A stretch of DNA of 64,000 nt, from positions 165,001 through 229,000 of the forward strand of contig CAJHZI010000695.1 in NCBI GenBank assembly GCA_905160935.1, read 5' to 3'. This DNA comes from Enchytraeus crypticus. Lineage: Eukaryota; Annelida; Clitellata; Enchytraeida; Enchytraeidae. Positions 21,124 through 62,268 of the stretch are shown here, piece by piece. The notes under the pieces were generated by a model. That model was not told the DNA's origin, made no database searches, and saw only the letters and a program-made list of their open reading frames with translations. How positions within the stretch are numbered: position 1 is the first letter of the stretch; each line of letters begins with the position of its first letter. The position numbers and the translations under genes were made by a program.

Positions 21124-21349
21124 GTGTAATATTTGTACTAGAAACATGCGGCTTTCTACAGAAGTAGGAGGCGCAATGCTAGTTCAACTTTTGACAGCTG
21201 TCACTCTCACCCAACTGGGCGGGGCCACAGATCAGTTCTACGATAAGAAGGTGGAGTCACTGGGGGTAGTAGAGAGACTATACTGCTCCAATGTGACCGA
21301 GAGCTCCGCCTACCCCAACTCCTCCCAACCAATAGCATGGATGCTACCG
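21124..21349 (+). CDS. Ig-gene exon 1 (5' UTR end, signal peptide, first Ig strands)
   Basis: An acceptor-like TATCACAG ends at 21123, suggesting a 5' non-coding exon upstream. Coding starts at 21146 or, better placed for a signal peptide, at 21176. Donor CTACCG|GTTAGATAAG after 21349, phase 0. Confidence 0.8.

Positions 21350-62268: not shown

Follow-up and report, generated by a model that had tools for sequence, protein, structure and literature searches.

Tandem arrays at splice junctions in an RBM25-containing window and in a sample of conserved genes

Tandem repeat arrays were found to end near splice junctions more often than expected by chance in a sample of conserved genes. Around 306 junctions, 55 exon-facing array ends lay in a zone, chosen after the distribution of ends had been viewed, that runs from 60 nt inside the exon to 40 nt into the intron (-60..+40), compared to 22.9 ends expected when the arrays were rotated within each locus (P = 0.0001). 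The explanation that we favor, with modest confidence, is that the arrays are 'mirages', that is, junction-biased tandem duplications that are tolerated since the exon-side copy alone is spliced. Such duplications, with units mostly of 20-120 bp and a segment that lies across or right beside the exon-intron border, occur in many genes of this genome. The spliceosome would pick the exon-most copy and the remaining copies would count as intron, leaving the protein unchanged, and border-crossing duplications would for that reason be tolerated, unlike duplications within an exon. Less surely, tandem duplications may also arise more often at borders.

Array ends around junctions of the genome sample

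Sample loci were found through Pfam profile searches for conserved exons of the RRM, myosin head and CCT chaperonin groups, and 60 of the 144 planned regions were fetched, the choice being blind to their repeats. Exon ends were called around the Pfam matches by scripts working on DNA alone, and further high-scoring exons were taken from a small gene finder, which at the same threshold returned 151 exons in the real loci compared to one exon in simulated sequence of equal length. For neighboring exons matched by one profile, the number of residues across the join agreed exactly with expectation in 12 of 16 cases. The de-duplicated set held 52 locus-strands with 153 exons, 306 junctions, 258,523 bases and 202 arrays; it represents 258 kb of the 524 Mb of one assembly of 802 contigs, in gene groups picked for their conserved domains. 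Arrays covered approximately 11% of the non-exon DNA in these loci. Expected values were obtained from 10,000 rotations of the arrays within each locus.

When the two sides of the exon were considered separately, 31 ends were found at acceptors and 24 at donors compared to 11.4 and 11.6 expected, respectively. The initial annotation had proposed that array ends, set against a randomized control, would lie close to splice junctions and had asked whether donor and acceptor sides differ; over the 258,523 bases of the sample the excess at junctions was borne out, and both sides were enriched with acceptors in the lead. In the CCT genes 30 array ends were found at junctions compared to 10.1 expected, and the corresponding amounts were 12 and 6.5 in the myosin genes (P = 0.023) and 13 and 6.3 in the RRM genes (P = 0.012). 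Taken singly, the myosin acceptors and donors (P = 0.09 and 0.11, respectively) and the RRM donors (P = 0.09) did not reach significance. Gene class or expression may matter, as the excess was threefold in the CCT genes and approximately twofold in the myosin and RRM genes.

The excess was confined to the vicinity of the junctions. At pseudo-junctions placed 150, 300, 450 and 600 nt deeper in the intron there were 22, 15, 24 and 19 ends, respectively, compared to 21.5-22.6 expected, and no excess was observed. As the zone was narrowed from -100..+100 to -40..+40, -20..+20 and -10..+10, the ratio of observed to expected ends climbed from 1.7 to 2.6, 3.1 and 3.5, respectively. The sharpest excess was found 0-19 nt short of acceptors (17 ends compared to 2.4 expected) and 20-40 nt past donors (11 compared to 2.7). 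When only the 127 junctions backed by edges of Pfam matches were used, 20 ends were found compared to 9.1 expected (P = 0.0015).

Array cover gave a similar picture in zones that had been fixed before the array ends were viewed, at 316 junctions prior to de-duplication. Intron cover was 0.168, 0.196 and 0.161 at 11-50, 51-100 and 101-200 nt from the junctions, respectively, compared to 0.115-0.116 expected (P of 0.001 or less), and 0.103 at 201-400 nt compared to 0.116 expected. This increase was clear for acceptors, and donors were raised at 51-100 nt only. On the acceptor side, the proportion of 28-mers that had a local copy was approximately 0.01 at 40-60 nt inside the exon (0.007 at 60 nt), 0.118 at the junction and 0.163 at 50 nt into the intron, and then 0.055-0.088 at 300-600 nt; the donor series ran 0.072, 0.161 and then 0.059-0.088 at 200-600 nt.

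Repeat units at the junctions of the window

The window is the whole 64,000-nucleotide stretch of DNA that was analyzed, and it corresponds to bases 165001-229000 of contig 599. The RBM25 gene occupies 45808..62268 on the + strand, and the 17 exons used, once joined, gave an uninterrupted reading frame of 915 residues in which RRM and PWI domains were recognized. Junction arrays had been assigned to three genes, of Ig, aquaporin and RBM25 type. The last of these identities held, no Pfam or PDB match to support the aquaporin label was found for the aquaporin-like gene, and the Ig label of the Ig-like gene drew just a sub-threshold match.

The 28-mer around each junction was searched for copies at most 700 nt away. 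All nine junctions that had been named as certain were found to have a local copy at 20-28 of 28 bases, one of them low-complexity, which upholds the earlier claim that the repeat units include the adjoining real splice site. All of these features lie on the + strand. In the Ig-like gene, a 19-bp array of 49 copies (21344..22269) has in its first unit the exon 1 donor, between 21349 and 21350, together with the last few exon bases (copy 21/28). In the aquaporin-like gene, a 37-43-bp array (39931..40088) includes the exon 2 acceptor (exon start 40068) and approximately 20 exon bases (27/28). The remaining seven junctions belong to RBM25. The exon 3 donor, between 47177 and 47178, is duplicated (47157..47275) with an intronic copy 82 nt downstream (21/28). 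A 42-bp array of 10 copies (49697..50111) includes the exon 6 acceptor (exon start 50103) and 9 exon bases (24/28), and the acceptors in three of its copies score 11.6-11.9 compared to 11.8 for the real site. A 94-bp array of 3.4 copies (56342..56658) includes the exon 10 acceptor (exon start 56624) and 35 exon bases (28/28); each upstream unit carries an acceptor, 34 exon-like bases and then a GT, and the gene finder read these units as a run of small pseudo-exons. At exon 13, the acceptor (exon start 58924) lies in a two-copy duplication with approximate limits of 58796..58970 and has its low-complexity copy 87 nt upstream (21/28), and the donor, between 59228 and 59229, lies with 21 exon bases in a 124-bp duplication (59208..59454; 20/28). 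The exon 16 donor, between 61759 and 61760, is included in a 29/67-bp array (61751..61996; 25/28), and the exon 17 acceptor (exon start 62176) in a 41-bp array of 3.8 copies (62023..62184) together with 9 exon bases (23/28). Annotation is affected as well, since a single junction in such loci can offer several splice sites of equal quality.

Three further RBM25 arrays, also on the + strand, stop short of an acceptor. A 51/153-bp array (48605..49123) ends 4 nt before the exon 5 acceptor (exon start 49128). This junction had been listed as a probable member of the set, and that assignment failed, as its best copy matched 17/28 and the junction is uncopied. The junction was likewise uncopied at exon 8 (exon start 52102), where a 60-87-bp array passing into TGTAT repeats (51601..52092) ends 9 nt before the acceptor. 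A (CTGA)n tract (57992..58158) of branch-point-like repeats ends 6 nt before the exon 12 acceptor (exon start 58165). TTGA/CTGA microsatellites at acceptors (loci L004-L063 of the sample and window acceptors such as that at 58165) look like tandem branch points.

Other repeats were also observed in the window. A coding exon of RBM25 carries an in-frame exonic array with a 54-bp repeat of AAQRAAALL type (60659-60783). By eye, a short interspersed tRNA-like repeat with a GGTTCAAATCC box recurs at 19340-19470, 24127-24240, 29179-29380, 41340-41560 and 60190-60300, and at 29179 its head appears expanded into a 21-bp array. Remnants of a LINE-like reverse-transcriptase frame, with frame breaks, were recognized by eye from the open reading frames at 34311-36639. 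The coding strand of RBM25 has a strong skew of G over C (window 44000-64000, up to 0.30), from which stretches of the window's other + strand genes differ. The mean skew of G over C by gene group was 0.08, 0.07 and 0.02 in the CCT, RRM and myosin genes, respectively.

Arrays across the junction and competing explanations

In the sample, 23 of 306 junctions were found inside arrays compared to 33.3 expected by rotation, and the amounts by group were 14/118 in CCT, 5/108 in myosin and 4/80 in RRM genes. A link of the CCT surplus with germline expression is possible. Since junctions inside arrays fell below the rotation value, the initial annotation overstates the case in describing the arrays as seeded on splice sites. 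This deficit means that exons are kept clear of arrays, in line with selection. When arrays were placed under a null that allowed 102 nt of exon intrusion, 25 straddled junctions were counted compared to 23.0 expected (P = 0.34), and with 60 nt allowed P was 0.028, both before de-duplication.

Straddling arrays numbered 22 at the 306 junctions, at donors and acceptors both, with units of 18-122 bp. They intrude 7-102 nt into the exon, which contradicts the earlier statement that arrays start exactly at exon edges. The intrusion was one unit or less in 19 of the 22, and the remaining three reach 92-102 nt into the exon. Exons with no more than a single unit are to be expected where splicing uses the exon-most copy and leaves the others in the intron. 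The straddling arrays do not have the form of coding tandem repeats (exonic minisatellites), in which the array lies in an exon and the protein is altered.

Copies were compared in 19 arrays with 34 extra copies. AG was kept in 17 of 18 acceptor copies and GT in 11 of 16 donor copies. The mismatch to the real copy was 0.154 (intron part) and 0.093 (exon part) for acceptors, and the corresponding values for donors were 0.174 and 0.077. Such a difference, 15-17% compared to 8-9%, is expected if selection holds the real exon copy alone. Sorted by spacing, the 34 extra copies were distributed over the three reading frames as 13, 12 and 9, showing no preference. Judged from their sequence, the extra copies look neutral. 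It had been proposed earlier that selection permits growth on the intron side only while the exon pins one end. The limit of one unit of intrusion, the approximately twofold greater divergence of the intron part and the absence of a frame preference agree with this; however, tolerance alone predicts no excess at junctions, yet one was observed.

A bias in the birth of duplications at borders is the likelier because the excess exceeds what tolerance would give, also in near-identical arrays with long units (8 ends compared to 2.5 expected). Candidate physical causes are transcription-linked breakage, a chromatin edge and the repetitive make-up of the acceptor region. As a tentative extension, which we think more probably wrong than right, borders in this lineage might be hot spots at which long-unit tandem duplications are born through a DNA mark left by transcription or packaging, such that introns would steadily lengthen from their edges and many exons would keep renewable spare splice sites. 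If so, the spare sites would be raw material for new exons or introns. Strand skew, taken as a proxy for germline transcription, gave a weak and non-significant result (rho = 0.24, P = 0.08).

The rival explanations overlap, and their likelihoods are not mutually exclusive. The one that survives best, although we consider it unlikely, is that duplications are born evenly and that repeats at selected borders stay recognizable or escape deletion. Similarity would last longer there, as the exon part of the extra copies is approximately half as diverged as the intron part, and near-identical arrays (match of at least 95%) of any unit length were not significantly enriched at acceptors (4 ends compared to 2.1, P = 0.16) or donors (4 compared to 2.2, P = 0.18) before de-duplication. 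In contrast, when the unit was also required to be at least 30 bp (18 arrays), near-identical arrays were enriched 3.2-fold (P = 0.001). Furthermore, the largest excess was found in arrays that by TRF limits merely abut the junction, where a constrained copy is lacking (22 ends at 0-19 nt compared to 5.0), though some of these units carry exon-start sequence. Several arrays (for example L008 p78, L008 p61 and L021 p162) seemingly stop just before the acceptor and yet have a unit with exon-start sequence, and the ends given by TRF therefore underrate straddling. Longer recognizability at constrained borders possibly contributes part of the effect.

Somewhat less probable is the explanation that the make-up of the 3' splice region is responsible, with low-complexity T- and TG-rich sequence and TTGA/CTGA repeats at the branch point and polypyrimidine tract slipping and seeding arrays. 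Branch-point-like YTGAY motifs were approximately fourfold denser at 11-30 nt before acceptors and nearly twofold denser at 61-200 nt compared to 201-400 nt, their density was not raised after donors, and GATT/GACT runs were present in several abutting units. However, the excess survived the removal of microsatellite-like units (43 ends compared to 16.4 expected), the donors are enriched too, and the excess was greatest for the longest units, at 1.6-, 2.8- and 4.4-fold for units of 10-29, 30-59 and at least 60 bp, respectively. Units of at least 60 bp gave 17 junction ends from 30 arrays compared to 3.8 expected, with 12 at acceptors and 5 at donors compared to 1.9 and 2.0, respectively. Arrays shorter than 100 bp were not significantly enriched (16 ends compared to 11.2, P = 0.09).

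Chance, in which minisatellites fall anywhere outside coding sequence in an array-rich genome and some of them meet junctions, is improbable for the sample, but the window alone would be compatible with it. TRF arrays covered 24% of the RBM25 introns (unit of at least 10 bp, score 80) or 26% (unit of at least 7 bp, score 50), and 5 of 33 RBM25 junctions lie inside them. Copies matching at least 20 of 28 bases were found for 7 of the 33 junction 28-mers (one low-complexity) compared to 24% of 1,582 non-low-complexity 28-mers taken from the same introns at least 60 nt from any junction. When arrays were rotated within the region, with the stop codon included among the donors, 7 array ends lay near RBM25 junctions compared to 4.4 expected (P = 0.12), with 5 at acceptors compared to 2.2 (P = 0.047) and 2 at donors compared to 2.2. 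The window by itself thus holds junction arrays that are not clearly above chance, and the case cannot rest on the examples first noticed there. The low number of sample junctions inside arrays and the null with 102 nt of intrusion also favor chance. The 2.4-fold excess of array ends at the 306 junctions and the four pseudo-junction depths with no excess argue against it. The proposal that minisatellites meet junctions beyond chance accordingly stands on the genome sample and does not stand on the window alone.

Selection for spare splice signals, in which extra acceptors, donors and branch points make splicing more robust, is very unlikely. AG or GT was kept in most extra copies, and many of these score like the real site. 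Nevertheless, junctions with and without arrays score much alike in a plain comparison, at 6.07 (n = 29) and 5.85 (n = 129) for acceptors and 5.56 (n = 14) and 5.13 (n = 144) for donors, respectively, and the divergence of the intron parts and the lack of frame preference speak against such selection. The reverse flow of splicing intermediates into the gene by RNA-mediated copying, raised in the initial annotation and otherwise without support beyond the presence of splice junctions in the units, is scarcely credible, as the units are contiguous, unspliced exon-intron DNA at donors and acceptors alike, and an unsystematic look at the first 64 bases of each inspected unit revealed neither a spliced join nor poly-A.

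Two further candidates were rejected. Dilution by interspersed repeats is too small, since repeats shared between contigs, of which many-copy families only are detectable, cover 7-10% at up to 50 nt from junctions and 10-18% deeper. If arrays grew until they met an exon barrier, the zone at 41-100 nt should be empty, yet 17 ends were found there compared to 14.9 expected.

Comparison with known systems

The splice-donor minisatellite of IFI6/G1P3 resembles the present arrays in consisting of tandem copies with splice sites. The same likeness holds for the human introns derived from tandem arrays reported by Zhuo et al. (2007), as cited in an excerpt of PMC3087553. In the excerpted text of a study of human segmental duplications, minisatellite expansion of variable internal tandem repeats at exon-intron boundaries can alter gene structure (PMC2812944); those repeats are in recent paralogues and half are coding, whereas the arrays described here are found mainly within the introns of conserved genes.

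Boundary-spanning duplications have already been suggested to give rise to new introns. According to part of the report on potato RdRp, an intron can be created by duplication across the boundary (PMC4974935). In the model of Rogers for intron gain by tandem duplication, as in potato RdRp, a segment crossing the border supplies a branch site, a polypyrimidine tract and a 3' splice site (PMC4974935, in part), as the units found here could. In potato a new intron was made, whereas here the extra copies sit in existing introns. An excess that is measurable over many genes of an animal far from lancelets would make the mechanism testable, namely where duplications arise, persist and become real splice sites, and it gives a route to study intron growth and the origin of spare splice sites.

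The closest resemblance is to the amphioxus 'mirages', which in the portions of the papers drawn on here are described as minisatellite-like tandem duplications across the exon-intron boundary in Adh3 and the globins BflGb6 and BflGb9, with TnC also cited and duplications in PGBD5 likened to them (PMC3087553, PMC3902484). These portions place them at donors and acceptors of several unrelated genes, with units of 10 to about 160 bp and AG or GT in many copies (PMC3087553, PMC3902484). The excerpted text of the amphioxus huntingtin paper (PMC2206037) yielded nothing on boundary repeats. As in those descriptions, the boundary here lies inside the unit, both 5' and 3' borders are affected, AG and GT are mostly kept, and the units (18-122 bp in the straddling arrays of the sample and 19-124 bp in the window) fall within the 10-160 bp range. 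The present arrays differ in belonging to another lineage, with mitochondrial code 5 and the order ND3-ND2-COX1-COX2, which resembles that of chitons, cephalopods and phoronids and which we take not to be the lancelet order; the animal is probably a mollusc or a close lophotrochozoan. COX1-like fragments with internal TGA and other stops were seen on long contigs (C361, C424, C796, C373 and C166 of G000) and are probably nuclear mitochondrial DNA copies. The present arrays differ from the mirages also in that normal splicing and somatic instability are reported for the mirages in the text drawn on, whereas the present arrays are known from the DNA of one assembly, and in that a statistical excess at junctions was measured here. 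No published enrichment of arrays at splice junctions was found in titles and abstract openings, most subscription journals lying outside the search. Boundary duplications were known gene by gene in lancelets, and what is added here is another lineage and a quantitative excess.
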